A DNA stretch of 21,520 nt from a virus. The position numbers and the translations under genes are program-made. The first letter of the stretch is position 1. The number at the start of each line of letters is the position of its first letter. The DNA lies in IMG/VR virus record IMGVR_UViG_3300044680_000080, positions 1 through 21,520 of that record; one strand, written 5' to 3'. The notes under the pieces were generated by a model. That model saw nothing but the letters and a program-made list of their open reading frames with translations, was not told the origin of the DNA and did no database searches. Positions 70 through 21,520 of the stretch are shown here, piece after piece.

Positions 70-699
70 ATGAAGAGATTCATACCACTGCTCGTTGCCG
101 CGCTTGCGCTGTTCGCCGCCGTTCCGTCCGGCGCGCAATCCCCCGTGCCGCTCGGCTTGATGCGTTTCGGCACCACGGGCGTATTCAATCCGCAGGCCGG
201 AAATTGCCTGAGCATTTTCGCGATGAACTCGAGCGGCCAGTCCGCGACGGATTCCGGCGTGCCTTGCTCGCCTGCCGTGGTGACGACGGCCTACACGAAT
301 GCCACCACCGCATACACGGCGGTCACGGCGCTGCCAGCCGTGCAGGGCGCGCTCACCGTCATCGGTGAATGCAACCTGATCTGGGAAGGCAGCAGCACAT
401 CGCTGACGCCGACCTTCGCAATGGGAAATTCAGCGGCACCGACTGACCTGTGGGCTATTGCGACGACAGCAGACGGGGTAGACACAGCGCCGGTTTACAC
501 GACAATCACCAGCACGACTACGACTGCTGTGACCGGAGCGCTCACCACCACGGCAACGGCGACGCCGTACAAGACGACGCTGTACTTCACGCTCGCAAAT
601 GCCGCGTCTGCGGATACCGTATCGGTGTACGCGAAGTCGAACAATGCGAGCTACACGGTTACGGTCGAGCCCGGATCTTTTTGCACGTATCTGCCGTAG
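70..699 (+). CDS. Signal-peptide protein of unknown function in the phage structural region
   Basis: This 209-residue protein has a clear Sec signal peptide: MKRF, a hydrophobic core to about residue 19, then SGA-Q as a likely cleavage site near residue 22. The mature part is rich in Thr, Ala and Ser, looks beta-structured and has four cysteines (in NCLS, VPCS, GECN and SFCT), an even number that would suit disulfides. I do not recognise the family. The start is supported by AGGAGA at 57-62, seven bases upstream of the ATG. The stop (697-699) directly abuts the next ATG at 700. Position between what should be head genes and the neck genes suggests a decoration or fibre-like virion protein, or a periplasmic accessory factor. 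Function is not assignable from sequence alone. Confidence 0.75.
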   Translation: MKRFIPLLVAALALFAAVPSGAQSPVPLGLMRFGTTGVFNPQAGNCLSIFAMNSSGQSATDSGVPCSPAVVTTAYTNATTAYTAVTALPAVQGALTVIGECNLIWEGSSTSLTPTFAMGNSAAPTDLWAIATTADGVDTAPVYTTITSTTTTAVTGALTTTATATPYKTTLYFTLANAASADTVSVYAKSNNASYTVTVEPGSFCTYLP

Positions 700-1251
700 A
701 TGGCCAAGTCCTTCGATCTCGGTAAAATCGCCCGCGCGCTGTCGGATCGCGCCGCGTTGTTCGAGGGCTCGGTAGTTCGCGTCGGCATTCCGGCTGGGAA
801 AAAATACCCGGACAAGAAGGGCACTAGCATCGGCTACATCGCCGCCATACAGGAGTATGGCGCTCCGGAAGTCAGCATTCCGTCACGGCCCTTCATGCGC
901 ATGACGCGCGCCGCGAAGTCGCGGGAGTGGGCGAAGCTGATGGGTGAGGGCGCGCAAGCGGTCGTGCAGCGGCGCATATCGCTCGATGGGATGCTGGACG
1001 CCGTGGGCGCAGTCGCGGCGGCGGACGTGGTGCAAACCATCGCGAATCGCGTCCCGCCGCCGCTTGCTCCGGCGACGGTTGCTGCGCGCATACGTCGGGC
1101 GCGTAAGGCGAACCCGTCATTTGACAGCAAGGGCTTGCCGATCACGATCAGCCATCCGCTCATCGATACCGGCGCGCTCGTGGCGCATGTTTCATATGGC
1201 ACGGGAATGGCTGGCACTGAGTTTGAAAACGGGAAGCCGGTAAAAGGTTAG
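700..1251 (+). CDS. Neck / tail-completion protein, HK97 gp10 or Mu gpG-like
   Basis: The 183-residue product looks like the phage tail-completion or virion-morphogenesis group that sits at the head-tail junction and terminates or connects the tail. The most telling part is residues 26-67: a VRVGIPAG strand, then IGYIAAIQEYGAP followed by IPSRPFMR. The pattern 'A-x-x-x-E-Y-G ... I-P-x-R-P-F' is typical of HK97 gp10-like and Mu gpG-like proteins. The C-terminal half is helical and basic, and ends with ITISHPLIDTGAL, also common in this group (target, then 'L-x-D-T-G-x-L'). The gene starts immediately after the previous stop, without its own obvious ribosome site, so translation is probably coupled. 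Family-level assignment is good; the exact neck position is inferred from gene order. Confidence 0.8.
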   Translation: MAKSFDLGKIARALSDRAALFEGSVVRVGIPAGKKYPDKKGTSIGYIAAIQEYGAPEVSIPSRPFMRMTRAAKSREWAKLMGEGAQAVVQRRISLDGMLDAVGAVAAADVVQTIANRVPPPLAPATVAARIRRARKANPSFDSKGLPITISHPLIDTGALVAHVSYGTGMAGTEFENGKPVKG

Positions 1252-1252
1252 C

Positions 1253-1708
1253 ATGCACTTACGCCGACTGGTACGTGGTGGCATCAACGCGGTTAATAAG
1301 GACCAGTTGATTCAATGGTCTCAATCCGTGGGGCCTGTCATTGACCGGACCACCGGCATTGCCACTCCGACCTACGAGCCGGTACAAAATATCTGGGCAC
1401 AGGTTCAGCCTGTCTCCACGGATCAGCTTGCGCACATGGAGCAGTTGAACATACAGGGAGTGCTGCGCAGCGTGTATATGAAGGGCGCTGTCGCCTCTGC
1501 CGTTCGGCCAGACGGAACCGGCGGAGACCTGTTGCAGTTCCCGGAAGTGTGTAACGGGCCACAACGTGTGTGGCTCGTGATGACCGTTGTTGAACAGTGG
1601 CCAAGCTGGTGCGCGGTCATAGTGCGGCTGCAGAATGACTTGAATACCGGGTGGACGGCGGACAGCAATACGGTCACTGCGGACTCTTCAAGGACCGCCG
1701 ATGGCTAA
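1253..1708 (+). CDS. Probable neck / head-tail connector protein
   Basis: The 151-residue protein lies between two neck-type genes and is probably a collar or connector component. AAAGG at 1244-1247 is five bases from the ATG. The centre (residues 45-125) alternates polar and hydrophobic residues like a small beta-barrel: IWAQVQPVS, then GVLRSVYMKGAV and RVWLVMTVVEQW. Such barrels, often annotated as collar or 'head-tail joining' proteins, commonly precede the neck terminator protein in this kind of tail module. The C-terminus is Thr/Asp/Ser-rich and overlaps the next gene by eight bases. I do not identify a precise family, so the role rests mainly on position. Confidence 0.65.
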   Translation: MHLRRLVRGGINAVNKDQLIQWSQSVGPVIDRTTGIATPTYEPVQNIWAQVQPVSTDQLAHMEQLNIQGVLRSVYMKGAVASAVRPDGTGGDLLQFPEVCNGPQRVWLVMTVVEQWPSWCAVIVRLQNDLNTGWTADSNTVTADSSRTADG

Positions 1709-2228
1709 TCCGACTCCCAGCATCGACATCACGGACAGCGATGTTTACAACGCGCTCGCAGCATTTGTCAGTCTGGTCATTGCGCCAGGTACGACGATTC
1801 AGCGCGGGCAGCAGAACCGTGTGCCGATGCCAAGTACGGATTGCGTGATACTGACGACAATAAGTGTTCCGGATCGCATCGGCACCAACATGGATTTTGT
1901 CGATGTTGCTGAGACGCAGATCACCGCGGATTTCACCTATTCGGTGCAGGCGGACTTTTACTCCCCCTATGCCGAGGCATGGGCGATGTCTGCGGAGCTA
2001 CTGTGGCGCGACAAGGCCGCGTGGTACGCAATGCCAGAAGGAATCAAACCGCTCTACAGCGAAGATCGCCGGCAACTGCCGCTGGTCGGCGCGGAGAATC
2101 AGTGGATTCAGCGCTGGACGCTGACACTCGTTCTGGACTACGAGCCAACGCTGACGATAACGACGCAATCGGCCAACACGGCAACCGTGATACCGGAGCC
2201 GATTGATGTGTTTTTCCCTGCATCATAA
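1701..2228 (+). CDS. Phage neck terminator protein (gp12-like, LIC_12616 type)
   Basis: The 175-residue product resembles the neck-terminator group that caps the tail tube below the head connector. Visible signature: residues 82-103 (VQADFYSPYAEAWAMSAELLWRD), residues 116-119 (KPLY), and E132 to W139 (ENQWIQRW), followed by a beta strand LTLVLDYEPTL. In this family a 'V-Q-x-D-x-Y-G/S-P' strand, a 'P-L-Y' turn and a 'E-x-Q-x-x-x-R-W' strand recur in that order. The start has AAGGA at 1690-1694, six bases upstream. The gene immediately precedes the sheath gene, the normal place for a terminator. Confidence is moderate to good because the motif order was matched by eye only. Confidence 0.75.
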   Translation: MANPTPSIDITDSDVYNALAAFVSLVIAPGTTIQRGQQNRVPMPSTDCVILTTISVPDRIGTNMDFVDVAETQITADFTYSVQADFYSPYAEAWAMSAELLWRDKAAWYAMPEGIKPLYSEDRRQLPLVGAENQWIQRWTLTLVLDYEPTLTITTQSANTATVIPEPIDVFFPAS

Positions 2229-2246
2229 ACCCGCGGAGATTTCCGA

Positions 2247-3740
2247 ATGTCTACAATCCCCTTCAGTGAAGTTGCCAATATCGTTCCCGGCGTATTGTCT
2301 GCCGTCGGTAGCGCGGTTGATGAAAACTGCGTGATACTGTCGGAGAGCATCTACGCGCCGCAGGAAGAGGTACTGGCCTTTATCAATGCGGCGGACGCCG
2401 CCGCATACTTTGGACAAGGCAGTCCCGAGGCCGTCATGGCTGCGGGTTACTTCCAAGGCCCCGACAACGCGCTTGCCACGCCCGGCGCGCTGTACTTCCT
2501 GGGTTACGCAGTGGCGGCTGTTCCCGCATGGCTGATGGGCGGCTCCAGCCAGCCAGCCACGCTCGCACAGTTGCAAGCGCTGTCCGGCACGCTGGCCGTC
2601 ACGGTCGACGGCACGCTGTTCACCAGCGCGACGATCAACCTTTCCGGTGTTGGCAGCTTCACGGCAGCAGCCGCTGACATCCAAGCGGCTTTCACAGCAC
2701 CGACGTTCACGGTCGCGTATGACGCTCTGCATCAGGCGTTCATCTTCACGACGAACGCGACCGGTTCCAGCGCCACGATTACCTACTGCACTGGCACACT
2801 CGGACTCGCGAACAGCCTTGGCCTTAGCTCGGCCGAAGGCGGCACGCTTTCCCAAGGAGCGGCGGCGACGACCCCGGCAGTCACGATGGGCTGGCTCATC
2901 AGCCAGTTCCAGAATTGGATGACGTTTGGCACAGCATTTTATTCGACGCAGAAGGAGCTGTTTGCCCAGTGGTCGAACTCCGTCGCGCCGCGCTACCTGT
3001 ACATTTCGTGGGATGCGGACGCCGCAGACGACGTCTTTCAAAACCCGGCGAGTTTCGGCAATTGGCTGGAGGTGAACGATCTGGTTGGCACGTTGCCCGT
3101 ATACGGCACAGAGCAGCACGCCGCGTTCGCCGCATCCTACTTTGCGTCGCTGAATTTCACGGCGCTGAACGGGCGCAGGACGCTGTGCTTCCAGTCGCAA
3201 TCCGGGCTGCCGGCGTCCGTGGACGATACGGTGACTTACGGCAATGTCACCTCCAACGGTTACAACGTCTACGGCGCTTTCGGCTCCAACAACCCGGCAA
3301 ACAACGCGGAGTGGATGACGCCGGGATCGGTGTCGGGCGACTGGGCATGGGCGGATACCTACGCGGGCCAGGTCGTGCTCAACGCCAATTTGCAGTTGGG
3401 TATCGTAACCGGTTTTCGCTCCGTCGGGCAGATACCGTACAACAGCGACGGCGACGCGCTGTTGTCCGGGTTCTGCGCCCCGGCCATTCAGGCCGCGCTG
3501 CGCTTCGGCACCATCCGCAAGGGCGTATCGTTGTCCGCCTTGCAGATTCAGGGGGTCATCGAGCTGGTGGGCTTCGACGTTTCTGGCACGATCACGGCGC
3601 AAGGCTACTACCTGTTCACGAATGCCGCCGGCACGCCGGCCAACATCCGGGCGCTGCGTCAGACGCCGCCGGCCATTCTGCTGTATCAGGACGGCGAGAG
3701 CGTGCAGCAGATCACCATGCCGAGTATCGTGATACAGTAA
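2247..3740 (+). CDS. Contractile tail sheath protein, DUF3383 type
   Basis: The 497-residue protein matches the DUF3383 group, which occupies the sheath position in many small myoviruses. Sheath subunits form the contractile outer cylinder of the tail. The N-terminus (IPFSEVANIVPGVLSAVG) is the usual short extension; residues about 105-215 form a beta-rich inserted domain with the recurring 'LAVTVDGT ... INLSGVGSFTAAAADIQAAF ... TVAYDALHQAFIFTT' layout. The C-terminal part (from about residue 385) contains GFRSVGQIPYNSDGDALLSG, then a final beta strand QQITMPSIVIQ that in sheaths donates to a neighbouring subunit. CGGAGA at 2234-2239 is seven bases from the ATG. The tail tube gene follows. 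DUF3383 is placed by recalled family features, not by a search. Confidence 0.88.
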   Translation: MSTIPFSEVANIVPGVLSAVGSAVDENCVILSESIYAPQEEVLAFINAADAAAYFGQGSPEAVMAAGYFQGPDNALATPGALYFLGYAVAAVPAWLMGGSSQPATLAQLQALSGTLAVTVDGTLFTSATINLSGVGSFTAAAADIQAAFTAPTFTVAYDALHQAFIFTTNATGSSATITYCTGTLGLANSLGLSSAEGGTLSQGAAATTPAVTMGWLISQFQNWMTFGTAFYSTQKELFAQWSNSVAPRYLYISWDADAADDVFQNPASFGNWLEVNDLVGTLPVYGTEQHAAFAASYFASLNFTALNGRRTLCFQSQSGLPASVDDTVTYGNVTSNGYNVYGAFGSNNPANNAEWMTPGSVSGDWAWADTYAGQVVLNANLQLGIVTGFRSVGQIPYNSDGDALLSGFCAPAIQAALRFGTIRKGVSLSALQIQGVIELVGFDVSGTITAQGYYLFTNAAGTPANIRALRQTPPAILLYQDGESVQQITMPSIVIQ

Positions 3741-3759
3741 TTTAACAGGAGAACAGGCA

Positions 3760-4200
3760 ATGTCTGGATCAATCACTTCTGCGAATGCGAGCATTCAGCT
3801 GACCATTCCCGGCGTTTACAGCTCCGGGATATTGCTGGATGGGTTCGCCGTCAACGACATCTTGGATACCGAAGCACAGACGCTCGTCGAAGGTCGCGTC
3901 GGCGCGGACGGTGAAACGGTTGCGGGCTACGTGTTCAACCTGAACAAGTTCCGCATGATGTTTCAGGCCAACTCGCCCAGCATTCCAGTGTTCTACAACT
4001 GGAAAGCGGCACAGGACGGGGATGTGGACGTCATCGCCGGCAGCATGACGATCATCGCGCCGTCATTGGGGCTGGACGTCGATCTCACCGATGTGTATTG
4101 CGAGTCGCTGCCGTTTTTGCCGCCGCTGAAAAAAGTGGCGGAAGAGCTGACTGTGTCGATGTTCAGCAGCCCGAACTGGGCAACCACGTCGAGCGGTTAA
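3760..4200 (+). CDS. Tail tube protein (DUF3277-like)
   Basis: The 146-residue protein is the expected size for a myovirus tail tube subunit, which stacks as hexamers inside the sheath and lines the DNA channel. It directly follows the sheath gene, as tube genes normally do. Visible pattern: an N-terminal beta strand (SIQLTIPGVYSSGILLDGFAVND), an acidic segment around DTEAQTLVEGRVGADGETVAGYVFN, then NKFRMMFQANSPSIPVFYNW and a C-terminal LPPLKKVAEELTVSMFSSPNW. This layout fits the DUF3277 group that accompanies DUF3383 sheaths. The ribosome site AGGAGA at 3747-3752 is well placed and one of the strongest in the window, in keeping with a highly made structural protein. Confidence 0.8.
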   Translation: MSGSITSANASIQLTIPGVYSSGILLDGFAVNDILDTEAQTLVEGRVGADGETVAGYVFNLNKFRMMFQANSPSIPVFYNWKAAQDGDVDVIAGSMTIIAPSLGLDVDLTDVYCESLPFLPPLKKVAEELTVSMFSSPNWATTSSG

Positions 4201-4203
4201 ACC

Positions 4204-4602
4204 ATGTCGCGCAAAACCGCGTTCGTCACGATCAACGAAGGTCGTGACAAAGGGAAAAAGTACAAGATTACCGAATGGCCTTGCGTTCAGGTGGAGCACT
4301 GGATCTTGCGCGCCGTATTCGGCCTGGGTGAAGTCGGTGTGGAGCTGCCGCCGGACATACTGCTGCTCGGCGCTGCGCCGATCATGTACGCGATCGGAAC
4401 GCAGATCACTAAACTCCCTTCCGCGCTGGGTGTGCAGCTGGCCGACGAGCTGATGCAGAACGTGGAGATGGTGGAGGATAAGGTCACGCGCTCGCTGGTG
4501 GACAATGACATCGAGGACGTTGGTACACGCTTCCAGCTGAAAAAGGAGGTGCTGAAACTGACGTTCGGTTTTTTCGCGACCGCCGCTTCCCCGAATTTGT
4601 AA
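4204..4602 (+). CDS. Tail assembly chaperone, short form
   Basis: The 132-residue protein follows the tube gene and precedes the tape measure gene, the conserved place of tail assembly chaperones (functional counterparts of lambda gpG and P2 E). These bind the tape measure and deliver tube subunits; they are not part of the finished virion. The sequence is mostly helical, with INEGRDKGKKYKITEWPCVQ as an N-terminal beta hairpin and a central 'PPDILLLGAAPIMYAIGTQI' stretch. No convincing Shine-Dalgarno lies before the ATG, which starts three bases after the tube stop, so initiation is likely coupled. A slippery heptamer near the 3' end (4569-4575) allows part of the ribosomes to continue in the -1 frame; see the long form. 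Confidence 0.8.
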   Translation: MSRKTAFVTINEGRDKGKKYKITEWPCVQVEHWILRAVFGLGEVGVELPPDILLLGAAPIMYAIGTQITKLPSALGVQLADELMQNVEMVEDKVTRSLVDNDIEDVGTRFQLKKEVLKLTFGFFATAASPNL

Positions 4603-4787
4603 TCGGCGAGCGGCGCGCCATCGTCAAACCCTGCAACGTAAGTTTCATCGTTTCAACCGTCGTCGCTTCCAAACTCGCCACGCTGCACGAACTGGAGACC
4701 GTGTACGGGTTGGAGGGGCTGTGGGATTTATTCGAGATCTACACGGTTACGCAGCATAACGAGTATCTGGCGTCGAAGCCAAAATAG
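4204..4787 (+). CDS. Tail assembly chaperone, -1 frameshifted long form (G/GT type)
   Basis: Ribosomes that slip one base back at T TTT TTC (4569-4575) would read residues 1-124 of the short form and then 70 codons from 4575 to the TAG at 4785-4787, a 194-residue product. The -1 frame is open from 4509 to the TAG but has no ATG, GTG or TTG until GTG 4701, only 28 codons before the end, so it cannot be an independent gene of useful length. Its sequence is protein-like and helical, with HELETVYGLEGLWDLFEIYT and an ending VTQHNEYLASKPK, which resembles the T-like extension of G/GT chaperones. That extension binds the tape measure. The frame change could also be a sequencing error, but the full set of frameshift signals argues against it. 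Confidence 0.82.
4544..4615 (+). promoter_or_regulatory. Programmed -1 ribosomal frameshift signal
   Basis: Three elements are seen. (1) An internal Shine-Dalgarno, AGGAGGT, at 4544-4550, 18 bases upstream of the slip site, with no start codon at usable distance. (2) The slippery heptamer T TTT TTC at 4569-4575, in the X XXY YYZ phase relative to the chaperone frame. (3) A perfect 7-bp stem, CGCCGCT 4581-4587 with AGCGGCG 4609-4615 and a 21-base loop, starting five bases after the heptamer. The zero-frame stop TAA (4600-4602) lies in the loop. Established knowledge: upstream Shine-Dalgarno pairing and downstream structure stimulate -1 slippage in bacterial dnaX; here the upstream spacing is longer than in dnaX. 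Confidence 0.82.
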
Positions 4788-4794
4788 GTGACAC

Positions 4795-6501
4795 GTGCCG
4801 ACCATCATTGACAGCTTATTCCTCGAACTCGGCATCGACACCGACAAATTTTCCAAGGATCAGCAAGCAGCGCTCGCACGAATCGCGGAGTTTGAGCGGC
4901 GCGCGAAGAAAAGCGGCAAGGAAGCCGGTGCCGCTATTCAGTCAGTTGGCGAAGCGTTCAAGGATCTGGCGCGGGAAACCCGCGTCGGTGCGGCCGGCGC
5001 CGGCATCGACCAACTGGGCCAGAAGCTCACCGCACTGGGCAGGAGCGCGCAGGTCGCCGGTACGGCTGGCGGCGTGATGGCCGAGACGCTCGGCATGCTG
5101 CTCTCGCCGACATCGCTCGGTATTGCCGCGACGGGCTTGCTGGGGTATGCGATGTGGGATCTCAACAAAAAGATGACGGCGACTAATGCCACTATCTACC
5201 GTCAGGCGGAACTCTCCGGCATAAACGCCGCGAACCTGTGGGACTGGGGCGAGGCGGCGCGCACGGTAGGTGCCAATCCGCAAGACGTGACGGGCGGAAT
5301 CGCCGCGATGCAGACGCAGATCATGGGCATGGGCATAGGCGCCGCCGACGCAACACCGCAGCTCGTCGCACTCGCGCGACTTGGCGTACCGTTCAGTTTC
5401 AAGACTGGCGTCGATATGGACAAGCTCGTGGAGACTGTGCACAAGAAGGCCATGGCAATTCCGGTGATCAACGGAGTAAGAAACCTTGGCGCTCTGCGTG
5501 CATTGACCAGTGCAGTGATGAACGATGCGATATTTGACATTTCGACTGATCCTGACAAGAACCCGGCGGAGTTGATGAAGGAGATCCGCGGCAAGACGCC
5601 AGTGGACACAGCCAACACTTTGCGCAAGTCGCTGGAGAGCCAGGCAGTACTAGGCAAGCTCGGAATTGCGCAAGACATTATTACGGAAACCAGCTACGGT
5701 GGTGAGCAGGGATTGCTGCAGGCCGTGGTGGAGCTGTTGACGCACATTCTGGACGGTGTCAGCAAACTGGTTGAGTGGATTGTGCATCCGGTCGATACTG
5801 CGAAACAGGTTGCCGGAGCTGTTGTGGACGCCGCCTCGCGTGCGCCCGACGCTGTGGGTTCCGCGTGGGATACGGTCAAAAACATGCTCTCTCCCAGCAG
5901 TAAGAGAATGTCGAGCGCCATGCAGATATTGACGGGCTATGGCATGTCGCGCCTCGATGCGGAAGCGGCCGTCGGCAACATGGCGTGGGAATCCAGCGGG
6001 ATGAATCCGCAGGCCAGGAACGGGGAACATTACGGCTTGGGGCAGTGGAGCAAGCGTCGTCAGGGAAATTTTGCCGAGCAGTTTGGCTACGCTATGGATG
6101 ACGAGTCCAAGGGCAAGTGGCGTCAGTTTCAGGACCAGTTGCTGTTCATGTATCGTGAGTGGCAGCAGCCCGGGATGGGTGCCGCGGAGATGGCCAAGGT
6201 CAGTAGCCTGATGGGCAAGACCAGTGCGTTTATGAAGTACTTCGAGAACCCCGGCGCCAAAGACAAGACTTTGGGCAACCGTTTCAGCTACGCGCAGATG
6301 GCGGCTGCGGCCAGCGCCAACGTACGTCCGCAAATAACTATCACGAACGACACGGACATTCACGAGCTTAACGTGCATGCCCCTTCATCTGATCCGAAGG
6401 CGCTCGCCGACGCTCTGCGTACCGGCGTCGCCACGCATCCGTTGATCCACTCGAACTCGCAGGGCATCGTGTCTCTTGGCGCGCGAGCGATGGCGCAATG
6501 A
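4795..6501 (+). CDS. Tail tape measure protein with C-terminal tail lysozyme domain
   Basis: The 568-residue protein sets tail length and passes into the cell envelope on ejection. Its N-terminus PTIIDSLFLELGID and a helical, Ala-rich segment up to residue 95 are typical of tape measures; residues 99-121 form one hydrophobic segment. Residues about 376-480 match the phage tail lysozyme family (Phage_lysozyme2): MQILTGYGMSRLDAEAAVGN, then W398-E399-S-S-G-MNPQA and YGLGQW. Glu399 is the likely catalytic acid. The lysozyme probably thins peptidoglycan during DNA entry. Start is GTG at 4795: an in-frame TGA at 4789-4791 excludes anything further upstream, and AGGTG lies four bases before it. The protein contains no cysteine. 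At about 1.5 Å per residue it implies a tail under roughly 85 nm. Confidence 0.92.
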   Translation: MPTIIDSLFLELGIDTDKFSKDQQAALARIAEFERRAKKSGKEAGAAIQSVGEAFKDLARETRVGAAGAGIDQLGQKLTALGRSAQVAGTAGGVMAETLGMLLSPTSLGIAATGLLGYAMWDLNKKMTATNATIYRQAELSGINAANLWDWGEAARTVGANPQDVTGGIAAMQTQIMGMGIGAADATPQLVALARLGVPFSFKTGVDMDKLVETVHKKAMAIPVINGVRNLGALRALTSAVMNDAIFDISTDPDKNPAELMKEIRGKTPVDTANTLRKSLESQAVLGKLGIAQDIITETSYGGEQGLLQAVVELLTHILDGVSKLVEWIVHPVDTAKQVAGAVVDAASRAPDAVGSAWDTVKNMLSPSSKRMSSAMQILTGYGMSRLDAEAAVGNMAWESSGMNPQARNGEHYGLGQWSKRRQGNFAEQFGYAMDDESKGKWRQFQDQLLFMYREWQQPGMGAAEMAKVSSLMGKTSAFMKYFENPGAKDKTLGNRFSYAQMAAAASANVRPQITITNDTDIHELNVHAPSSDPKALADALRTGVATHPLIHSNSQGIVSLGARAMAQ

Positions 6502-7415
6502 GCGCACAGTTCCCCAACGTGCCGGCGCTGCCGGGGGTGCCGCCACTGGCGCGATTGACCACGGCGGCGCAGACATTTGCCGGTGCCTCGCTTGCCGGCG
6601 AGACGCAGGCGCTCGCTTCACAGCTTGGCTTGCCGCCCACAGTGACGTTCGGCACCGACTCGCTGTACTCCGGCCTGGACTTGCAGCCGCTAACCTCGCC
6701 GCCAACCTCCTCACAAGGGCCGGACGCCGGTTCCACCGTCCCTGCCGGCGCGCTGCCAAAATACAGTATCACGACAGCGGAAACCGTCACCATTGGACCT
6801 TTCGTATCGACAATGCCGGATGGAACCACCGTGACAGACGTCACAACGTCCACCGACTCGTTTAATGTGAGTCAGGCCATCAGCCCTGACTCGGTAGTGG
6901 AACTTGACTTTAACGCCGACTCGCAGGTGAACACGCACCCGGTTGAGCCGGGAACTAACGGACCGTCGGTCGGGTTTTCCGCCTATAACCGCGTACAAGA
7001 CCCGGTCAACATTCGCCTGCTGCTGGCGTGCATGGGCAAGAACATGACTCGCAAAGCGTTTGTTTCGACGCTGCAAAATTTGCGCGAAGGAACGCAGCTC
7101 GTCACCATTTCAACCCCGGACGCCAGCTATCCCAACATGACGTTGAAGGGATACGGGTACAAGAAAACGGCGGAGCGTGGCGCAGTGACGATCTGGGCCG
7201 ATACTCATTGGACGGAGGAACGATCCAGCAACGTCGTCATTTCCTCACCGCCTACGGCGCAGCCGCAAGGAGAGGCAACCGCGAGCTTAGGTTCCGTGCA
7301 ACCCGCGACGGCGACTCCGCAGCAGCAAGCGTCGATCTCCAACCCACCTGTGCCACCAACCACGTTGCCCGCTGACTATGCAAGCACAGCGCCGCCGTCG
7401 GGAGATGCGTTTTGA
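6498..7415 (+). CDS. Baseplate Dit-like distal tail protein
   Basis: The 305-residue protein follows the tape measure with an ATGA overlap and opens the baseplate operon. Residues about 130-245 carry the recognisable core: DSVVELDFNADSQ, SAYNRVQDPVNIRLLLAC, then KAFVSTLQNLREGTQLVTIS and YPNMTLKGYGYKKTAERGAV with TIWADTHWTEER. The pattern of 'N-R-V-Q-D-P' followed by a helix, a 'L-V-x-I-x-T-P' strand and a 'M-x-L-x-x-Y-x-x-x-K-x-x' strand fits the Dit-like domain that forms the hub ring where tube joins baseplate. The N-terminal 90 residues are a Pro/Ala/Thr-rich linker and the last 57 are Pro/Gln/Thr-rich and probably disordered. Role is strongly supported by context. Confidence 0.82.
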   Translation: MSAQFPNVPALPGVPPLARLTTAAQTFAGASLAGETQALASQLGLPPTVTFGTDSLYSGLDLQPLTSPPTSSQGPDAGSTVPAGALPKYSITTAETVTIGPFVSTMPDGTTVTDVTTSTDSFNVSQAISPDSVVELDFNADSQVNTHPVEPGTNGPSVGFSAYNRVQDPVNIRLLLACMGKNMTRKAFVSTLQNLREGTQLVTISTPDASYPNMTLKGYGYKKTAERGAVTIWADTHWTEERSSNVVISSPPTAQPQGEATASLGSVQPATATPQQQASISNPPVPPTTLPADYASTAPPSGDAF

Positions 7416-7714
7416 CGCAGCAGATTCTGCCGATACAGGCAATTCCCTCGCAGACGTTTCAGGTAACGCTGGGCGGGCAGAGCTGTACGATTACGCTGCA
7501 ACAGATGCGCACGGGGCTGTACGCGACGTTGTCGATCAACGGTAACGTCATCATTTCCTGCAAGTACTGCAACGATCGCGTGAACCTGATCCGTCAGGCG
7601 TATCTGGGTTTCATCGGCTGGCTGTACTTCGTGGATTCTTCCGGGCAACAGCAAGACCCCAATTACGCAAGTCTGGGATCGCGGTTCCTGCTGGTGTACG
7701 AGTCCTCGCCGTGA
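7412..7714 (+). CDS. Baseplate plug protein (Pam3 gp18-like)
   Basis: The 100-residue product fits the small baseplate plug family that lies between Dit-like and hub genes in phages such as cyanophage Pam3. Features: N-terminal PIQAIPSQTFQVTLGGQ, a beta hairpin with Q-x-M-R-T-G-L-Y-A-T-L-S-I-N-G, KYCNDRVNLIRQAYLGFIGWLYFVD, and a closing RFLLVYES. The repeated 'I-P-x-Q-x-F-x-V-x-L-x-G-Q' opening is typical of these proteins. The start is TTG at 7412, overlapping the preceding TGA by four bases (TTGA) and preceded by GGGAG at 7400-7404, seven bases away. The next in-frame ATG would delete a third of the domain, so TTG is preferred. Confidence 0.82.
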   Translation: MTQQILPIQAIPSQTFQVTLGGQSCTITLQQMRTGLYATLSINGNVIISCKYCNDRVNLIRQAYLGFIGWLYFVDSSGQQQDPNYASLGSRFLLVYESSP

Positions 7715-9146: not shown

Positions 9147-9150
9147 CTAT

Positions 9151-9522
9151 ATGTCAGGACCACTCAACACAGCCTACTTCGACAACCTCACCGAGCAGAT
9201 TGCAAGGTGCAGCAGTTGCGCGGAGTTGCAGGAGCTGACTACGACGGCGATCACGGCGCTGAACGCGCAGCTCGCCGCGATCACGGCGGCCAACGCGGAG
9301 TTCGCAGCGCTGCAGTCGCTGCTGGTTTCTCCTGCGGCTGACCTGACGGCGATTGTCACTTGGATCACCAGTTTAATATCGCTGTACCTCGGTCCGCAGC
9401 TGGCGGCCTATGCAAAACTGACAGCACAGGTGGCAGCCATGACGACGGAGATTGCAACATTGTCGTCGGCCATCACATCGGCGGCATCCAACTTCGAGAA
9501 CTGTTCCATTTCTATCCCATGA
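9151..9522 (+). CDS. Small baseplate-region protein of unknown function
   Basis: The 123-residue protein sits between the spike and the gp25-like wedge gene. It starts MSGPLNTAYFDNLTEQIARC, has a CSSC motif at residues 20-23, a helical Ala/Thr/Leu-rich stretch that may coil, then a hydrophobic segment AIVTWITSLISLYLGPQLAA and another Ala/Ser/Thr helix. I do not recognise a family. The ATG is at 9151, four bases after the preceding stop; a longer frame from 9106 would overlap the spike. No good Shine-Dalgarno is obvious. Its stop overlaps the next start (ATGA). The small helical composition and location would suit a tip, plug or trimeric bundle component, but this is only inference. Confidence 0.6.
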   Translation: MSGPLNTAYFDNLTEQIARCSSCAELQELTTTAITALNAQLAAITAANAEFAALQSLLVSPAADLTAIVTWITSLISLYLGPQLAAYAKLTAQVAAMTTEIATLSSAITSAASNFENCSISIP

Positions 9523-13930: not shown

Positions 13931-14185
13931 ATGTCTATTCGCACTAACCTTACCGCGAACGGCTCTTGGACGCAGATCGGCACGGCCCCGGCAACGGCGC
14001 AGCTGATCTCCCCGGACGCAACAGGCACTGAAGTGATGGTGTACACAGGAGCTTCAGCACCCGCCACTAATTCTGACGGCTTTGTACTGAGCGCGGGATA
14101 CCAGTCGCACACTTTCGGTGGCACCGCCGCTATCTGGGCACAGATCGTACAGGCGACCGGCAACGCCCTGCTCGCCTGCCAGTAG
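13931..14185 (+). CDS. Small tail-fibre-region protein of unknown function
   Basis: The 84-residue protein has no signal peptide and lies between two signal-peptide fibre genes. GAGGG (13919-13923) lies seven bases before the ATG, so this start is well supported. The sequence alternates strands and turns: SIRTNLTANGSWTQIGTAPA, then TEVMVYTGASAP and AIWAQIVQATGNALL, giving a probable small beta-sandwich. A single cysteine is present near the C-terminus (LLACQ). Comparable small beta proteins often sit next to tail fibres and may be a tip, decoration or collar protein. I do not identify a family. Confidence 0.6.
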   Translation: MSIRTNLTANGSWTQIGTAPATAQLISPDATGTEVMVYTGASAPATNSDGFVLSAGYQSHTFGGTAAIWAQIVQATGNALLACQ

Positions 14186-14198
14186 AGAGGATTCTCGA

Positions 14199-17100
14199 AT
14201 GAAGTACGTACTCGCACTCCTGCTTGCTGTCGGGGCGCTGCTGCCGCGTGTCGGCGCTGCTCAGCAACAGCACCTCGTGTGCAATACGCTGACGGGTGCT
14301 TATTGCAACACCGTCTCGAATCCCGGCAACGGCGACATAGGTATGCCAGCATGGCTTGCTTACGGGACGTCGGAAGCTAACTTTGACCAGGTGTTCGCTA
14401 TCCTCCCATCGGGTTCGCTGCCGGCACCGCTGTATGGCGTGCTGACCAATGACAACGGTGTAATGGCGAGCCTGCTTCCCGAAACCACGGGAACATGGTG
14501 TCTCAACTGGTCAAGCCTGACGGCAGAGCCGACGCTGGCTTCGTGCGGCAGCGGATCGGGAACCGTTACCAGCGTCGGTGTCACGGTGCCCGCATGGCTC
14601 ACGGTTTCTCCCGCCACGATCACTTCGAGCGGCGTATTCAGCATCTCGGGAACCAACGAACCCAATAACGAGTTTCTGGCGAGCGCGTCCAGCGGCAGCG
14701 AAACGGTATTGGCACCACGCCTCATCGTACCGGCTGATATTCCCACGCTTAATCAGAACACGACCGGGAACGCTGGCACGGCAACTGCGCTGCTGAGCGC
14801 GCCGGCACAGTGCTCATCTGGCAGCTATACCACTGGCATCGCCACCTCCGGCGCCGCTAATTGCGCCGTGGTGCAGTATGGCCAGCTGGGCGGTTCCGTG
14901 CCTACCTGGAATCAGAGTACGACTGGCAACGCCGCCACGGCTTCCAGCGTCCCCTACAGCGGACTCACCGGCACGGTGCCTACGTGGAACCAAAGCACCA
15001 CGGGCAACGCCGCCACGGCTTCCAGCGTCCCCTACAGCGGACTCACCGGCACGGTGCCTACGTGGAACCAAAGCACCACGGGTAACGCCGCCACGGCTTC
15101 CACGCTCGCTTCTACGCCTGCTCAGTGCCCCGGCGGGCAGTACGCTACGGGTGTGACTGCGGCGGGCGTCGCCAATTGCGCCCAGGTAGGCGCTGGGCAG
15201 CTCAGCGGGCTAGGCACCTTCGCTACCCAGAACTACGCCACTCCGCCTGCCATTGGCGGTACGACGCCGAATACGGCGGCTTTCAGCGGATTGACCGATA
15301 CGGCCATCTCCGGGTCTACGCAGTGTGTACAGGCCAACAGCGCCGGGGTGCTGTCCGGCACCGGCACGGCCTGCAACGCCAGCAGCGGCACCATCACCGG
15401 GGTGACGGCTGGCACGGGCCTTACGGGCGGCGGATCGAGCGGAACGGTGACGGTAGCGCTCTCCACGCCGGTCAGCGCGGCGAACGGCGGCACCGGACTG
15501 TCTGCCCTTGGCACGGGAGTTGCGACGGCCTTGGGTATCAATGTGGGCACAGCAGGCTCCCCGGTCGTCAATGGCGGCGCGCTGGGCACACCCTCATCCG
15601 GCAGCGGCGCGAATTTGACCGGAGTACCCATTTCCACAGGCGTCTCGGGCCTTGGCACCGGGATCGCTACGGCGCTCGGCACCAGCACCGGGACCACCGG
15701 AGCGCCGGCCCTGCTTGGCAGCGCGGCGACGTTTAGCGGCGTGACGGACAGTGCGATTACGGGGTCCACGCAATGCGTGCAGGTCAACTCTTCCGGCGTG
15801 ATGTCCGGCACCGGAGCGGCGTGCGGCGGCAGCGGCAGCACCGGGGCGAATCCCACGGCCAGCGTCGGGCTTGCGACGGTCAACGGCTCCGCTGTGACGT
15901 TCATGCGCTCGGACGCCGCGCCGCCGCTTTCACAGTCGATCGCTCCCACGTGGACCGGGACGCATAAATTCACTAACGGCACGCTCCAGCTTCTGGGATC
16001 TTCTTCCGGCGCGATGACACTGGAAGCGCCGGCTGCCGCTTCATCCTACGTCGTGACTTTTCCGCCCACGACGGACACGGTGGACGTGCTCGGTACTGCG
16101 CAGACGTTCACCGCCGCCAAGACGTTCGCCAATTCGGATCTGCTGTTGCAGGGCGCGTCGACCGGCACGACGGCGTTCAGCAGCGCCAACTCCAGTTCGA
16201 CCAATTACACCGCCGCCATTCCGGCCAATTCCGGTACTGTCGCCGAGATCAACCTGGCGCAGACGTTCACGGCGTTGCAGACGTTTGGAACCGACATCTC
16301 CATCGCAGGCGTAACGCCAACGGGCGCAACGGGTACGGGCAATGCTGTTTTTGGAACCAACCCTGTACTCGTAGCCCCGACGCTGGGCAATGCTGCGGCG
16401 ACGTCTCTGACGATTGCGAACCCGCTCGGCACCGGTTACGGCGGCACGGGCGCGGCGAGTTTGGCGGCGGCCAGCATCCCGGTTTTCAGTTCGACGCCAA
16501 CGGCGGGGCATTGCGTTGAGTGGCTTTCCTCCACGGTCTTGGAAGATTTCGGTGCGGCTTGTAGCAGCACTTCCGCACCGATCGCTGGGCAGACGGTATA
16601 CGGCAACGGCAACAGTACGGGCAGCACACCGGTCCCCGCCTATGCGTTAAATCTGGGCGCTGGACTTGTGGCAACGACAACGACGCTGGCGGCACAGGCG
16701 GCAATCGACGATGAAACGGGGACGACGTTCGCCATCCCATCCAGCGACGCCGGCATGGTGGTTAACCGTACCGTTACCTCTTCCTGCAATGACACGTTGC
16801 AGTCTGCCGTGGCTACGGGGTTTACGCCGTATTTTGCCTTTACCTACGCGAACTCGCCGGCCTCTACGGTCCCCTGCACGCTGACGCCCACTACCTCCAC
16901 GATCGGTGGACGCGCCACGCTTGGCCCCGTTTTTCCGGGGCAGAGCTGCAACATCACGAGCGACGCCGATGGCAACTATAAGGTTGACAGTTGCAATGCT
17001 GCGAACATCACCGCACAGAACGCGGTGAACCTGGCGACCATGACGGCGCACGACGGCGTGACCGACGACAGCGCCGGTATCAGCACGGCGGTTGCCATCA

Positions 17101-20033
17101 TCAATGCCGCCGCTGCCAGCGGCATTTACGAATGTCTCTATATCCCGGCTGGCGTGTACTACGTCAACGCCCCCGTGACGCAGTTCGCCAAGTTCGTGCC
17201 CAGCTGCGCGACCGGAGACGGCAAGTATCACTCGTTTTTCAAGCTCGGCTCTGGCTTCAGCGGCCCGCTGTTCTCGGTATCCGATGCGTGGAACGTCACG
17301 AACGGCATTCCGAACGATTTTTACAACTACGGCAGTGTTTTCAACGGCGCTTTGTTCTGGGGTTTCACGATAACCGGCGACATCAGAAACAGCGGCCAAA
17401 GCGGCATCGCATTTTACGACAATAACGACAAGGCAATTTTTGGTGATCTGTCCTTCGAGTACATCAATGGTCCGGCCATCGACATCGGCACCGTACTCAA
17501 CAACACCGGCTCTGGCCAAGCTTACATGCGCGACTCCAAGTGCTATGACCTGATATTCAACTACACCGGCAGCACGACCGCGCCCGCTTTTCACATTGGC
17601 GGCAGCACGGGCACAGTGGGTGACGCGACCAATGAGATCGAGTGCTTCGGCATTCGCATGGTCCATCCGAATACCGATGGCCTAGTGGTCGATACCGCAA
17701 GCACATTAGGTTCAATCAACAAAGGCACCGACAACATTTCCCTGCACGGCGTGTCACTTGAAGGCAACGTCAACAGCGGCGATCTGTTTCGCGCCGGCGG
17801 CACGACGAATAACGGCACCGTATACAACGTGCATGTGTACGACTATCTCTGCACGAATGTTCAAGGGTACTGCTTCCATCTGGCCGGCACGAGCGTGACG
17901 CCGAGCGGCGCGTCTGCGCCGAATAATTTTGAGTTCGACGGCTTCACGGTAACTAGCGTCAACGGCACCGCTTCAGCCGTCAAGCTCGATCAGGGCAACA
18001 ATGTCACGATCAAAAATTACAAGGGCAATGGCAGCCTGGTGGACGATCTGATCACTGGCTCTGCCGTTGCCGCGCCGGTACGCATTGAAAATACCGGCAA
18101 CGCCGCGCTTACCACGAGTCTTGCAAACCCGAAAGTCGTTCAGATTACGGGGCAGTACGGCTACGGTCCGCTGAATCAGGCGGTAAGCACGAACGTGACA
18201 TCAACGGGTGCAGCAGACTGCGCCACGGACGTATCGGCGGACGCGAACGCGCTATTTGCAGCGGGGTACATTCATGTAGTGGTGCCAGCGGGCTGCATTC
18301 TGATCGCGGATAACCTTACGGGCGGCGCGACGCCCGCCGGCTCGATCATCGAAGGGGAGAACTGGCTGACCTCCGTCATCACGACGAACAGCCCCACGAC
18401 GACCGACGTGCAAATAGGCGCGATGTCCACCCTCAAGAATATCTCGGTTCGCGACGGCTTTTGCAATGCCAACACCACGCCCTACAACGTGGACAAGTAC
18501 TGCCCTGTCGTCGATGCGACGAATCAATCGAGCGCAACCATACCGGCGTACATATGGCCCGGCAAGGTCATTGACGGTCATGCAGGCCCCTTCGTCGTGC
18601 CTCCTGGGCAGACACCGGTTGCCGCGACCGCATTGACCGGGCCGCTGAATGGCAGCAGTTCGTGCACGACGGCGGCTAACTGCCGGATCACGATGACCGG
18701 CACATGGAGCAGCGCAACCACGACGATTGCGGTGACGGGCGCGAGTGCGCAGCCGAACGTCTGGGATGTCGTCACGGGCACCGGCTTTCCGTCGGGAACG
18801 ATCATCACGAGTTTGACATCCGGCTGTACGTCCTCCTGCACGATGACGATTTCCAAGACGACGACGACGAATGAGCCGGGCGGCACGACGCTTACCGACG
18901 CAATTGGCAACTATTATCAAATTTACAGCGCCGGCAGCACCACATGGTCAACCTGCGGATCATCCTCGAATGCCGTGGGGACTATTTTTCAGGCCACCGC
19001 GCAATGCACCGGAACGGGGACCGTGGTCTTTGCGGCCAACCAGATGCCGATGATCTCGGCGGTGCTGCTCGGCAACGGCGATGGCATGTTCACTTCGACG
19101 AACAACACCTCAGAGTCGGGGGCTTCCGCGATTCGCATTGTGACCAACGGCGTGGGTGACAACGGTGCTTACATCATCAACGGCAACACCAACCCGTCTT
19201 ACCTGCACTACGGCACATTCATTCTCGATCTGACCGATTCGACCGCCGGGACTGGCACGGCGGGCTCGCACGCCATCTACATCAATCGCAAGGGCAATAC
19301 GTCCGCCTCGTCCGATGTCACTTTCCTGATCAGCGACGCTAGCAGCCAGTTCGCCTCGGGCAACACGACGGATGTTTTTGATACGACGCTCACCAATCAG
19401 GTGAGCGGCAATGTCTGGAACGAGTTTTTGAATGTCTCGACGTTCACCGGCAACTTCCTGATGCAGAAGATGGGCAGTACCGGAACCTGCACCGGGAACT
19501 TCATCCAATCAATCGTGAACACGACGACGGAATTTCAGGTTGGATGCAACGGCAATGTGACGGTAACGGGCAGTTTGACAGCCAACGGGGGCCTTCACAT
19601 CCCGGCGCCCGGCCCCGCTGGCGGGTCTATAACAGTGGGTTCATTAAGCACCAATATCGACACGACGCTGGCGACTACAACAAACGTGGGCAACGTACTC
19701 AGCTCACTTATCATTGGCGCCGGAAGTGTTACGGACTCGAACAATGGCTTGACTAGCTTTGTTGACAGCGCGATTACCAACGCCATTCTGCGCGGGACAA
19801 CCGGATCTGTCGGCGGCAGCGTTTTAACGGCTGGCTCCTGCTCTTCCGGGACAGTATCGGTTACGGGAGCAACGACAGCGATGGCTGTGACAGCAACGCC
19901 GGTCACTTATCCGGGCGATGGAAATTACTGGCTGGGGTACGTTTCGTCGGCGGGCACCGTAACAGTGAAAGTGTGTGCGGCGGTCGCCGGAACTCCGGGC
20001 GCGAGCGCCTACAACGTGAGGGTCATTCAGTGA
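14199..20033 (+). CDS. Giant tail fibre / tailspike protein with signal peptide, repeats and beta-helix modules
   Basis: The 1944-residue protein begins MKYVLALLLAVGALLPRVGA-AQ, a Sec-like signal peptide, with AGAGAGG at 14184-14190 eight bases before the ATG. Residues about 180-550 are a modular Gly/Ser/Thr-rich shaft: duplicated 49-residue blocks, two identical 26-residue repeats (243-294) and duplicated STQCVQ modules. From residue 944, AHDGVTDDSAG and LYIPAGVYYV fit the N-cap of Pectate_lyase_3-like right-handed beta-helices; a second similar entry (GAADCATDV to VVVPAGCIL) begins near residue 1334. Such domains bind or cut surface polysaccharide; I see no provable active site. About three dozen cysteines are present. 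Likely a long fibre or tailspike that reaches the host surface. A longer start at 14118 lies inside the 84-residue gene and is rejected. Confidence 0.8.
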   Translation: MKYVLALLLAVGALLPRVGAAQQQHLVCNTLTGAYCNTVSNPGNGDIGMPAWLAYGTSEANFDQVFAILPSGSLPAPLYGVLTNDNGVMASLLPETTGTWCLNWSSLTAEPTLASCGSGSGTVTSVGVTVPAWLTVSPATITSSGVFSISGTNEPNNEFLASASSGSETVLAPRLIVPADIPTLNQNTTGNAGTATALLSAPAQCSSGSYTTGIATSGAANCAVVQYGQLGGSVPTWNQSTTGNAATASSVPYSGLTGTVPTWNQSTTGNAATASSVPYSGLTGTVPTWNQSTTGNAATASTLASTPAQCPGGQYATGVTAAGVANCAQVGAGQLSGLGTFATQNYATPPAIGGTTPNTAAFSGLTDTAISGSTQCVQANSAGVLSGTGTACNASSGTITGVTAGTGLTGGGSSGTVTVALSTPVSAANGGTGLSALGTGVATALGINVGTAGSPVVNGGALGTPSSGSGANLTGVPISTGVSGLGTGIATALGTSTGTTGAPALLGSAATFSGVTDSAITGSTQCVQVNSSGVMSGTGAACGGSGSTGANPTASVGLATVNGSAVTFMRSDAAPPLSQSIAPTWTGTHKFTNGTLQLLGSSSGAMTLEAPAAASSYVVTFPPTTDTVDVLGTAQTFTAAKTFANSDLLLQGASTGTTAFSSANSSSTNYTAAIPANSGTVAEINLAQTFTALQTFGTDISIAGVTPTGATGTGNAVFGTNPVLVAPTLGNAAATSLTIANPLGTGYGGTGAASLAAASIPVFSSTPTAGHCVEWLSSTVLEDFGAACSSTSAPIAGQTVYGNGNSTGSTPVPAYALNLGAGLVATTTTLAAQAAIDDETGTTFAIPSSDAGMVVNRTVTSSCNDTLQSAVATGFTPYFAFTYANSPASTVPCTLTPTTSTIGGRATLGPVFPGQSCNITSDADGNYKVDSCNAANITAQNAVNLATMTAHDGVTDDSAGISTAVAIINAAAASGIYECLYIPAGVYYVNAPVTQFAKFVPSCATGDGKYHSFFKLGSGFSGPLFSVSDAWNVTNGIPNDFYNYGSVFNGALFWGFTITGDIRNSGQSGIAFYDNNDKAIFGDLSFEYINGPAIDIGTVLNNTGSGQAYMRDSKCYDLIFNYTGSTTAPAFHIGGSTGTVGDATNEIECFGIRMVHPNTDGLVVDTASTLGSINKGTDNISLHGVSLEGNVNSGDLFRAGGTTNNGTVYNVHVYDYLCTNVQGYCFHLAGTSVTPSGASAPNNFEFDGFTVTSVNGTASAVKLDQGNNVTIKNYKGNGSLVDDLITGSAVAAPVRIENTGNAALTTSLANPKVVQITGQYGYGPLNQAVSTNVTSTGAADCATDVSADANALFAAGYIHVVVPAGCILIADNLTGGATPAGSIIEGENWLTSVITTNSPTTTDVQIGAMSTLKNISVRDGFCNANTTPYNVDKYCPVVDATNQSSATIPAYIWPGKVIDGHAGPFVVPPGQTPVAATALTGPLNGSSSCTTAANCRITMTGTWSSATTTIAVTGASAQPNVWDVVTGTGFPSGTIITSLTSGCTSSCTMTISKTTTTNEPGGTTLTDAIGNYYQIYSAGSTTWSTCGSSSNAVGTIFQATAQCTGTGTVVFAANQMPMISAVLLGNGDGMFTSTNNTSESGASAIRIVTNGVGDNGAYIINGNTNPSYLHYGTFILDLTDSTAGTGTAGSHAIYINRKGNTSASSDVTFLISDASSQFASGNTTDVFDTTLTNQVSGNVWNEFLNVSTFTGNFLMQKMGSTGTCTGNFIQSIVNTTTEFQVGCNGNVTVTGSLTANGGLHIPAPGPAGGSITVGSLSTNIDTTLATTTNVGNVLSSLIIGAGSVTDSNNGLTSFVDSAITNAILRGTTGSVGGSVLTAGSCSSGTVSVTGATTAMAVTATPVTYPGDGNYWLGYVSSAGTVTVKVCAAVAGTPGASAYNVRVIQ
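14748..15209 (+). repeat. Diverged 147-bp duplicated module flanking the 78-bp repeats
   Basis: Bases 14748-14894 and 15063-15209 each encode 49 residues of matching layout: N-Q-(N/S)-T-T-G-N-A, then P-A-Q-C, a Gly/Ser/Tyr stretch, A-N-C-A and G-Q-L. Conserved cysteine positions (PAQC and ANCA) suggest each module closes a disulfide loop. DNA identity is lower than for the 78-bp units, so this duplication looks older. The tandem units lie between the two copies and share the W-N-Q-S-T-T-G-N-A block, meaning that they arose from the front part of this module. Confidence 0.8.
14925..15080 (+). repeat. Two identical 78-bp tandem repeats in the giant fibre gene
   Basis: Bases 14925-15002 and 15003-15080 are identical copies by eye of a 78-bp unit starting GGCAACGCCGCCACGGC. 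A third, truncated copy begins at 15081 with one changed base and ends after about 23 bases. A diverged copy lies just upstream (about 14895-14924). The unit encodes 26 residues, GNAATASSVPYSGLTGTV-PTWNQSTT, so expansion or contraction keeps the frame. Identity at wobble positions points to recent duplication. This is a tandem coding repeat, not a CRISPR array: no spacers are present. Confidence 0.93.
15282..15824 (+). repeat. Duplicated STQCVQ module in the giant fibre
   Basis: Bases 15282-15374 and 15732-15824, 450 bases apart, encode 31-residue segments of the same layout: F-S-G-(L/V)-T-D-(T/S)-A-I-(S/T)-G-S-T-Q-C-V-Q, then a segment with V-(L/M)-S-G-T-G and a final cysteine (T-A-C or A-A-C). 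The two copies differ at many third positions, so this is an old duplication. The region between is rich in GTG-(V/I)-A-T-A-L-G style repeats, the usual linker of phage fibres. Confidence 0.78.
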
Positions 20034-21520
20034 TGCGCGTCCTATTCTGTTTGCTGGCCTTCCTCGCCTTCGCGCCGTCCGTCGAAGCAAGACTGCCAAG
20101 CGGCGGCGCGTGCGCATGTGTTAAGGCGGCGACCCCAGTCGCGAGCCCCCCAGCGGCAACGTATGCGTCGGCGCAAACGGTAACGCTGTCTGACTCGACG
20201 TTCGGCAGCTCCATTTATTTCACAACGGACGGCACCATCCCGGTGTATCCGGCCCACGGCTCGACGACGTTGTACACAGCGCCGTTCAGCGTAGGAAGCA
20301 CCGCCACGGTCAAAGCAATAGCCGTGGCTCCGGGCTTTAGTCAAAGTCTGCTCCTGACCGTAAAATACACCATCGAAACGCAGGTAGAGACTCCGGTAAT
20401 TTCACCCGGCAGCGGCACGGCAAGTTCTTTCCTCATGATGATTGTCGACGGCACGCCGGGAGCCGCCATCTGGTACACGGCGAACAACACGACTCCGGTC
20501 TGCGCGTCGCCAAGCGTGCAGTACACCGGCACAGAAGTTTCGATCACAGCCACGTCAACCGTACAAGCCATCGCGTGCGCGGCTGGGTTTACGAACTCTG
20601 CCGTTTCCGTCCCGGTGGTCTACACCATTTCGGGTTCACCGCCGGCCTGCTCGCCGGTCACTGGCGTCACGGCAGGTACTCTGACGTTGAAAACCTTTCC
20701 GACAAGGTCGAACGGCATATCGCCGCTGCTCATATGGTTCGACTCAACGAATACGGTGGACTCTGGGCTGGCGGCAAATACCACGCCGTTTAACAGCGTC
20801 TGGTATGTCGAGAATTTCGGCGATGCGGGCGCATCGGGAACCGGCTTCTGGAAGTACGGCGCAAGTCCGGGCAGCAACAGCATGGACACAGCGTCGGGTG
20901 CCGGAATATCGGCGCACCTGTATATCTGCCCGCCTGGCGGCGGCAATTGCAACTACACGCCTACCGTAACCGGGACCGATCCGGCGGGCAACACGATAAC
21001 CTGCCAGATTCCGATTACCGCGTACGACCCGTCAGGCAGCAATGGTTTCCTCGGCACTGCGACGATCTGCCAGTCGTCCTCTGGTACGCCGGTCGCCGGT
21101 AGCGGTGGGTGTCCTGCCGGTGCCGCTGTGTCGCTTTCGGCGGCTATGGGCGCGAACGTCGGCGCTGGCAAGCAGGTGCTGTTCAAGTGCGGGGACACTT
21201 TTACGGGCTCCATCACAATGAGCGGCACCAAAGGAACCATCGGCGCGTATGGATCGCCGAACTGTTCTGGCACGCAGACTAATAGGCCGATCTTCAACGG
21301 CGGAATTACGCTCAACGCGGGCGGCATGGTTGACTGGCGCCTGATGGATGTGGATATTGAATCGACCGGCACCACGGCAGTTTTTGAGAACGGCGGCTCA
21401 GTAGCTCCGGGTCCGCTAACGATTTACAACGTGAACTCCAACAATAACACGCGCCATTTTTATATCGGCAGCGCGCAGCAGTACGGCCTCATTGCTGTCA
21501 CAGCTACGAACACGACCACG
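20033..21520 (+). CDS. Tailspike-like protein with signal peptide, two chitobiase-C-like repeats, PKD-like and beta-helix domains (partial)
   Basis: An open frame starts at ATG 20033, overlapping the previous TGA by one base (TGATG), and stays open for 496 codons to the right edge, so the C-terminus is missing. Residues 1-19 (MRVLFCLLAFLAFAPSVEA) form a Sec-like signal peptide. Residues 36-113 and 119-199 are two repeats like the chitobiase C-terminal / FN3_7 fold: IYFTTDGTIP and IWYTANNTTPV, each followed by VKAIAVAPG or VQAIACAAG and an SxxxxVxYTI finish. Residues about 208-330 look PKD-like (PLLIWFDSTNTVDS, later YVENFGD). From about 385, FKCGDTFTGSITM and IGAYGSPNC lead into a right-handed beta-helix. 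I infer a glycan-binding spike. No catalytic residues can be named from the part visible. Confidence 0.78.
   Translation, partial: MRVLFCLLAFLAFAPSVEARLPSGGACACVKAATPVASPPAATYASAQTVTLSDSTFGSSIYFTTDGTIPVYPAHGSTTLYTAPFSVGSTATVKAIAVAPGFSQSLLLTVKYTIETQVETPVISPGSGTASSFLMMIVDGTPGAAIWYTANNTTPVCASPSVQYTGTEVSITATSTVQAIACAAGFTNSAVSVPVVYTISGSPPACSPVTGVTAGTLTLKTFPTRSNGISPLLIWFDSTNTVDSGLAANTTPFNSVWYVENFGDAGASGTGFWKYGASPGSNSMDTASGAGISAHLYICPPGGGNCNYTPTVTGTDPAGNTITCQIPITAYDPSGSNGFLGTATICQSSSGTPVAGSGGCPAGAAVSLSAAMGANVGAGKQVLFKCGDTFTGSITMSGTKGTIGAYGSPNCSGTQTNRPIFNGGITLNAGGMVDWRLMDVDIESTGTTAVFENGGSVAPGPLTIYNVNSNNNTRHFYIGSAQQYGLIAVTATNTTT

Follow-up and report, generated by a model that had tools for sequence, protein, structure and literature searches.

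The window analysed here is an entire IMG/VR record of 21,520 bases, a fragment of an uncultivated contractile-tailed phage, and the genes discussed below all lie on its plus strand. They run in the order neck, sheath (DUF3383), tube, tail chaperone, tape measure, baseplate hub, spike and wedge, Baseplate J, DUF2612 and fibres; the succession of DUF3383 sheath, Baseplate J and DUF2612 places the window in the DUF3383/DUF2612 myovirus tail module. The neck-to-baseplate core genes (neck, DUF3383 sheath, tube, chaperone, tape measure, hub, spike and wedge) occupy positions 700-9959 and none of them encodes a signal peptide. The signal-free core baseplate protein Baseplate J (PF04865) is encoded at 11128-12612, and its gene served as the marker for finding relatives; the DUF2612 baseplate protein (PF11041) follows at 12615-13157. 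For host identification, genome contigs were scanned with two queries, Baseplate J and the fibre N-domain, and neither gave a relative; promoter, terminator and Rfam scans of the window gave nothing informative. Between the fibre genes lies a gene for a conserved 84-aa protein (13931-14185), which is without a signal (score 6.4) and has been retained next to the fibre genes both in this phage and in the relatives L002, L003, L004 and L005; it is possibly an adaptor. In another locus, two homing-endonuclease-like open reading frames were recognised by eye amid the tail genes (L015:5345-6031 and 8917-9633).

Five further open reading frames were confirmed, at 70-699 (209 aa), 13163-13915 (250 aa) and 14199-20033 (1944 aa) with ATG starts, at 9949-11124 (391 aa) with a TTG start, and from an ATG at 20033 to the window end at 21520, where the contig cuts off a protein of at least 496 aa. 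Cleavage was predicted after MKRFIPLLVAALALFAAVPSGA and before Q in the protein starting at 70 (signal 70-135), after MKFKFALLALLACTLAGA and before Q in that at 9949 (signal 9949-10002), after MLKKFVLGLALCLAGLPALA and before G in that at 13163 (signal 13163-13222), after MKYVLALLLAVGALLPRVGAA and before Q in that at 14199 (signal 14199-14261), and after MRVLFCLLAFLAFAPSVEA and before R in that at 20033 (signal about 20033-20089). The signal-peptide score used was a simple home-made one (n-region charge, h-region and the -3/-1 rule) and not SignalP; on it the five proteins reached 11.55-14.28 (13.65 for the protein at 70), and all five have the positive n-region, hydrophobic core and small -3/-1 residues of Sec/SPase I signals. 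The 16 core genes scored at most 7.7 or gave no match, so that 0 of 16 has a signal. At a threshold of 11.5, no signal was called at 268 internal in-frame starts (maximum 10.5) or at 98 spurious open reading frames (maximum 9.1), which together make 366 control starts in the window, and 19 of 10,000 composition-random N-termini passed. Signals in five of five proteins against none in the core are therefore far beyond chance, and the preliminary description, which had noted five Sec-type starts and no signal on any core tail gene, was right on both counts. Its description of the signals as AxA-ending was accurate for the proteins at 9949 (AGA) and 13163 (ALA), but the others end in different small-x-small motifs (SGA, GAA, VEA). 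No lipobox cysteine was found after the hydrophobic core in any of the five window proteins.

Good ribosome sites precede four of the five starts (GAGGAG at 70, GGAGG at 9949, GAGAGG at 14199 and GAGGG at 20033), as had been stated before, and only a weak GGGGT precedes the start at 13163. This weak site, together with the TTG start at 9949, might be explained if the true starts lay beyond the hydrophobic segments, which would then be untranslated. Such a start-codon artefact is extremely improbable, because several diverged phages preserve a signal-like reading of this frame, most of their starts being ATG, and no ATG is conserved where the mature protein begins.

Homologues in the IMG/VR relatives L002, L003 and L004 carry signals of their own, and alignments of homologues begin at or adjoining the predicted mature end, namely at residue 26 for the protein at 70, at residues 20-24 for that at 13163 and at residues 20-25 for that at 14199. 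Conservation in the 70 family was 49% in the signal versus 77% at the start of the mature protein, and in the 13163 family 56% versus 69%; for the proteins at 9949 and 14199 there was no contrast in conservation between the two parts. In the 70 and 13163 families the signal is present in every homologue despite sequence drift. The survey of homologous phages for retained signals, suggested in the preliminary description, thus found them kept, with matches that begin near the mature end. To judge from these comparisons, the signals are kept by selection and look functional, and Sec export of the proteins is very probably real. The idea that the signals were acquired or kept independently also fits, as each distinct N-domain has its own signal and a sister fibre in L071 has none. 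In L005, a homologue of the 14199 protein (L005:18056-19813) has a lipoprotein signal (LVSGC) instead of an SPase I type signal, with a linker preceding the conserved domain. Such an exchange makes most sense if what counts is export as such, and the L005 protein is possibly a surface-tethered phage adhesin.

The protein at 13163 is the main tail fibre of the window. Its predicted mature N-domain, beginning with GVQLYTNNAVTTLA, is a fibre domain already known from phages, and the protein was assigned to the tail-fibre families phrog_8469 and phrog_30299 with residue 26 aligned to model position 6. Both this homology and the position after Baseplate J and DUF2612 identify it as a phage fibre. 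The mature N-domain also matches residues 5-102 of PDB 8jov (E 1.5e-14), a 'Putative tail fiber protein' with 18 chains in the entry; that homologue comes from a different phage and differs in having the domain from chain residue 5, so that it has no signal. This NN fibre domain recurs in 21 further IMG/VR loci, where Met lies 1-9 residues before the motif without a signal, and the domain is likewise Met-started and signal-free in an uncultivated Manatee Spring phage, Pantoea PdC23 and Burkholderia BcepIL02. Therefore, cleavage of the 13163 protein would leave a normal fibre start. Fibres of the 13163 type have a conserved N-domain and differing C-terminal parts, which by sequence comparison is the usual mosaic of virion receptor-binding proteins. 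The protein at 9949 has a fibre-like N-domain and a C-terminal Gp53-like fibre tip (PF21882) at residues 317-391 that covers the entire model; the signal is also present in the homologues L002:8468 and L062:3947. Judged by these domains, at least two of the five proteins (13163 and 9949) are ordinary virion fibres with an added signal. Hydrophobic N-terminal helices could in principle also remain uncleaved and serve as anchors in the baseplate or a membrane. This is very unlikely here, given the good small-x-small cleavage sites, the homologous fibres that lack the helix and start at the mature residue, and the lipobox in its place in the L005 homologue.

The baseplate gene upstream of the main fibre carries a matching feature. 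The DUF2612 protein ends in the C-terminal tail GPLNTQPLNTWPLNQF (about 13095-13148), with the pattern GPLNTxPLN(T/S)WPLNQF. This PLN tail is near-identical in all four phages whose next gene is a signal-bearing NN fibre and occurs only there; it is absent with other fibre types, for example in L005, where the next gene encodes a signal-free S74-chaperone fibre. Outside the known clade, a search for the PLN-tail DNA pattern across IMG/VR gave a single match, on the minus strand of a 135-kb contig. Among 64 family members in which the gene after DUF2612 could be read, only these four have a signal on that main fibre; the other 60 score at most 8.9, and many of the members are near-duplicates. 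The sister phage L071 (DUF2612 67% identical) has, like the window, an NN fibre directly after DUF2612; its fibre differs in that Met stands directly at the domain, with no signal, and its ATG overlaps the DUF2612 stop. The DUF2612 tail of L071 is a YNT repeat analogous to the PLN repeat. Most simply read, these gene pairs would mean that the NN domain docks on the tail repeat and that docking stayed unchanged when the signal was gained, or when L071 lost it. The matched tails and fibres fit a retained virion docking, and we consider it rather probable, on this sequence evidence, that at least the 13163-type fibre ends on the virion.

Cysteine makes up 1.97% of the residues in the mature signal-bearing proteins of the window versus 0.72% in the core (Fisher p 5e-6, with residues treated as independent). 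Counts were even in 19 of 22 complete signal-bearing proteins, several of which are homologous, and close pairs exceed random placement in some long fibres, namely the 14199 protein, L002:13268 and L056, the last with seven tight pairs. The enrichment and even counts fit disulfides that would form in an oxidising compartment, the periplasm. A strict link between cysteine and signal was rejected: the part seen of the signal-free L071 fibre has 15 Cys, so cysteine content is not strictly tied to export. A tailed phage with a disulfide-bonded virion part has been described in Agrobacterium phage Milano (PMC10811340); there it is the contractile tail that is concerned, unlike the fibres considered here.

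No known virion fibre domain came up in Pfam for the other three exported proteins. The exported fibre or adhesin at 14199 contains 38 Cys, mostly in close pairs, and had no match in Pfam. The protein at 20033 had no match in PHROG and contains two CHB_HEX_C/Fn3-associated domains, the only Pfam matches, which are of a type found in secreted proteins. The protein at 70 had no match in Pfam, PHROG or PDB. Its family is small and found beside head and neck genes in six phages, with a signal in all (homologues in L004, L053, L054, L055 and L056), and four cysteines, with two possible disulfides in the window protein, are common to every full-length homologue. AlphaFold models were too poor for use (mean pLDDT 45 for the 70 protein and 53 for the 13163 protein). 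Of the earlier picture of five virion-region fibres or adhesins, the fibre assignment thus stands for 13163 and 9949 by their fibre domains, but the protein at 70 was not shown to be a fibre. Tandem pairs of signal-bearing 70-family paralogues lie beside the neck genes at L053:3938-5060 and L055:3902-5024.

A rival explanation is that the exported set consists of adhesins or decoys that reside in the periplasm or outer membrane and are not virion parts; they might mask receptors (superinfection exclusion), free progeny from debris or digest matrix at lysis. The clear lipobox of the L005 homologue would tether that protein to the membrane, which would argue against a virion role and favours envelope residence of the 14199 family in at least one phage, and another likely lipoprotein is encoded in the L004 module. 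At the end of the fibre module of L002, a signal is joined to a glycoside hydrolase family 44 (GH44) domain (L002:16525-18774), possibly a secreted matrix-degrading enzyme. An NHL beta-propeller in a signal-bearing protein of L118 and the domains of the 20033 protein, which are common among secreted proteins, point the same way. A precedent is lambda Lom, a signal-bearing outer-membrane protein whose gene lies between the tail spike and tail fibre genes (PMC12309495), although Lom is an outer-membrane beta-barrel and not a fibre as in the window. For the set as a whole this explanation is nevertheless rather unlikely: 13163 still has the anchor domain of phage fibres and, on the baseplate, the tail that partners it; 9949 carries a fibre-tip domain; and the main baseplate fibre position of the clade is filled only by a signal-bearing protein. 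Virion docking of the 14199, 20033 and 70 proteins has weak sequence support, and with the lipoprotein homologue in view the set is probably mixed, with virion fibres alongside adhesins and enzymes that are secreted or lie on the surface. The suggestion that exported proteins stay on the host surface is therefore a live alternative for some members, such as the L005 lipoprotein and the exported L002 enzyme.

Signal-bearing proteins also occur more widely in the family. In a subgroup of ten loci (L081, L082, L084, L089, L094, L105, L108, L118, L124 and L126) the main fibre is signal-free and the next gene is signal-bearing; its products reach 1327 aa and start with ...QTSGxTPPPPPxCxSxNAGA or similar. 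Among these, L082 and L124 gave matches to virion structural PHROGs, and L082 gave one to a tail-spike PHROG as well. Two signal-bearing fibre proteins with matches to tail-fibre PHROGs were found in L076, and the L056 fibre combines a signal with a Peptidase_S74 fibre chaperone. Candidate signal-bearing proteins are also present in Acetobacter phage phiAO1 and the circular phage ctLpZ231. The signal-bearing protein of L126 contains a collagen-like GPPGPVGPSGPP stretch.

Tailed phages are taught as wholly cytoplasm-built, and cytoplasmic assembly of their tails is established. Export signals placed exactly ahead of the first residue of an ordinary fibre suggest virion parts that would be made outside the cytoplasm. 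We favour, with a probability of about 0.52, an explanation in which Sec export and periplasmic maturation are followed by docking of fibres to virions at lysis. The clade would make its fibre and adhesin proteins as Sec pre-proteins, and the signal would be cleaved at the membrane, so that the mature protein begins where ordinary fibres begin. The fibres would fold and oxidise in the periplasm, forming disulfides, and the cytoplasm would be the site where heads and tails, still lacking fibres, are assembled. Once both membranes are broken at lysis, mature fibres with a docking domain (13163, probably 9949) would bind the baseplate; for the 13163 fibre, the binding site would be the PLN-repeat tail of DUF2612. 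The same export route would serve the 14199, 20033 and 70 proteins, which may be released or envelope-bound adhesins or enzymes.

A point against docking after lysis is that free fibres would be diluted. Post-lysis assembly could be avoided if the signals were weak or slow, with most of the fibre staying in the cytoplasm, assembled normally, and a fraction exported; this would reconcile fibre domains with a signal. Such dual use is unlikely, since every homologue has a strongly hydrophobic signal and a good cleavage site, and no feature points to weakness. With respect to the preliminary description, export of fibre-type proteins is strongly supported by the conserved signals, the fibre domains at the mature N-terminus and the lipoprotein swap in one relative. 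Assembly of virions in the periplasm is unsupported because tailed-phage tails are built in the cytoplasm, and fibres joining virions after lysis are possible. More tentatively, at somewhat under even odds in our estimate, the entire receptor-binding fibre set would be Sec-exported, disulfide-stapled and docked post-lysis, in a two-compartment assembly widespread in this environmental myovirus family.

The statement that no established system explains the pattern was correct for the literature searched, which gave no description of exported tailed-phage fibres (most subscription journals lay outside its coverage). In GenBank, however, a possible tail fibre is already annotated with a 'possible signal peptide domain', in the records of both Bcep781 and Bcep1. 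The Burkholderia phages Bcep781, Bcep43, Bcep1 and BcepNY3 (Naesvirus) belong, like the window, to the DUF3383/DUF2612 myovirus family, and gp49 and its homologues are possible tail fibres with a signal, which in Bcep781 is MNMKKNKHVLFGVLLTACGLPAFA followed by Q. They differ from the window in having one such fibre in the records inspected, and their main fibre after DUF2612 is signal-free. No published mechanism for this signal was found in the literature searched. The fibre signal had thus been seen in annotation and left unexplained, and an exported-fibre assembly pathway would be categorically new. If the favoured explanation is true, fibres that pass through Sec form disulfides, could undergo periplasmic modification and meet the particle only at lysis, which would change the view of how host-recognition proteins are made and of their laboratory production (periplasmic expression). 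The cultured Bcep781 group is a testable case, and signal-bearing fibre-like proteins beside tail genes could serve to recognise phage adhesins of a class that is otherwise hidden.

Two rearrangements were seen among the relatives. In L004, the 70 homologue (L004:1855-2484) lies directly before the sheath gene, the usual site of the 1701 gene, and the 1701 homologue (L004:17077-17646) is positioned behind the fibres. In L015, a fibre upstream of the sheath (L015:3-923), its N-terminus off the contig, has an S74-like chaperone region recognised by eye, followed by a C-terminal transmembrane helix and an RKRL tail.
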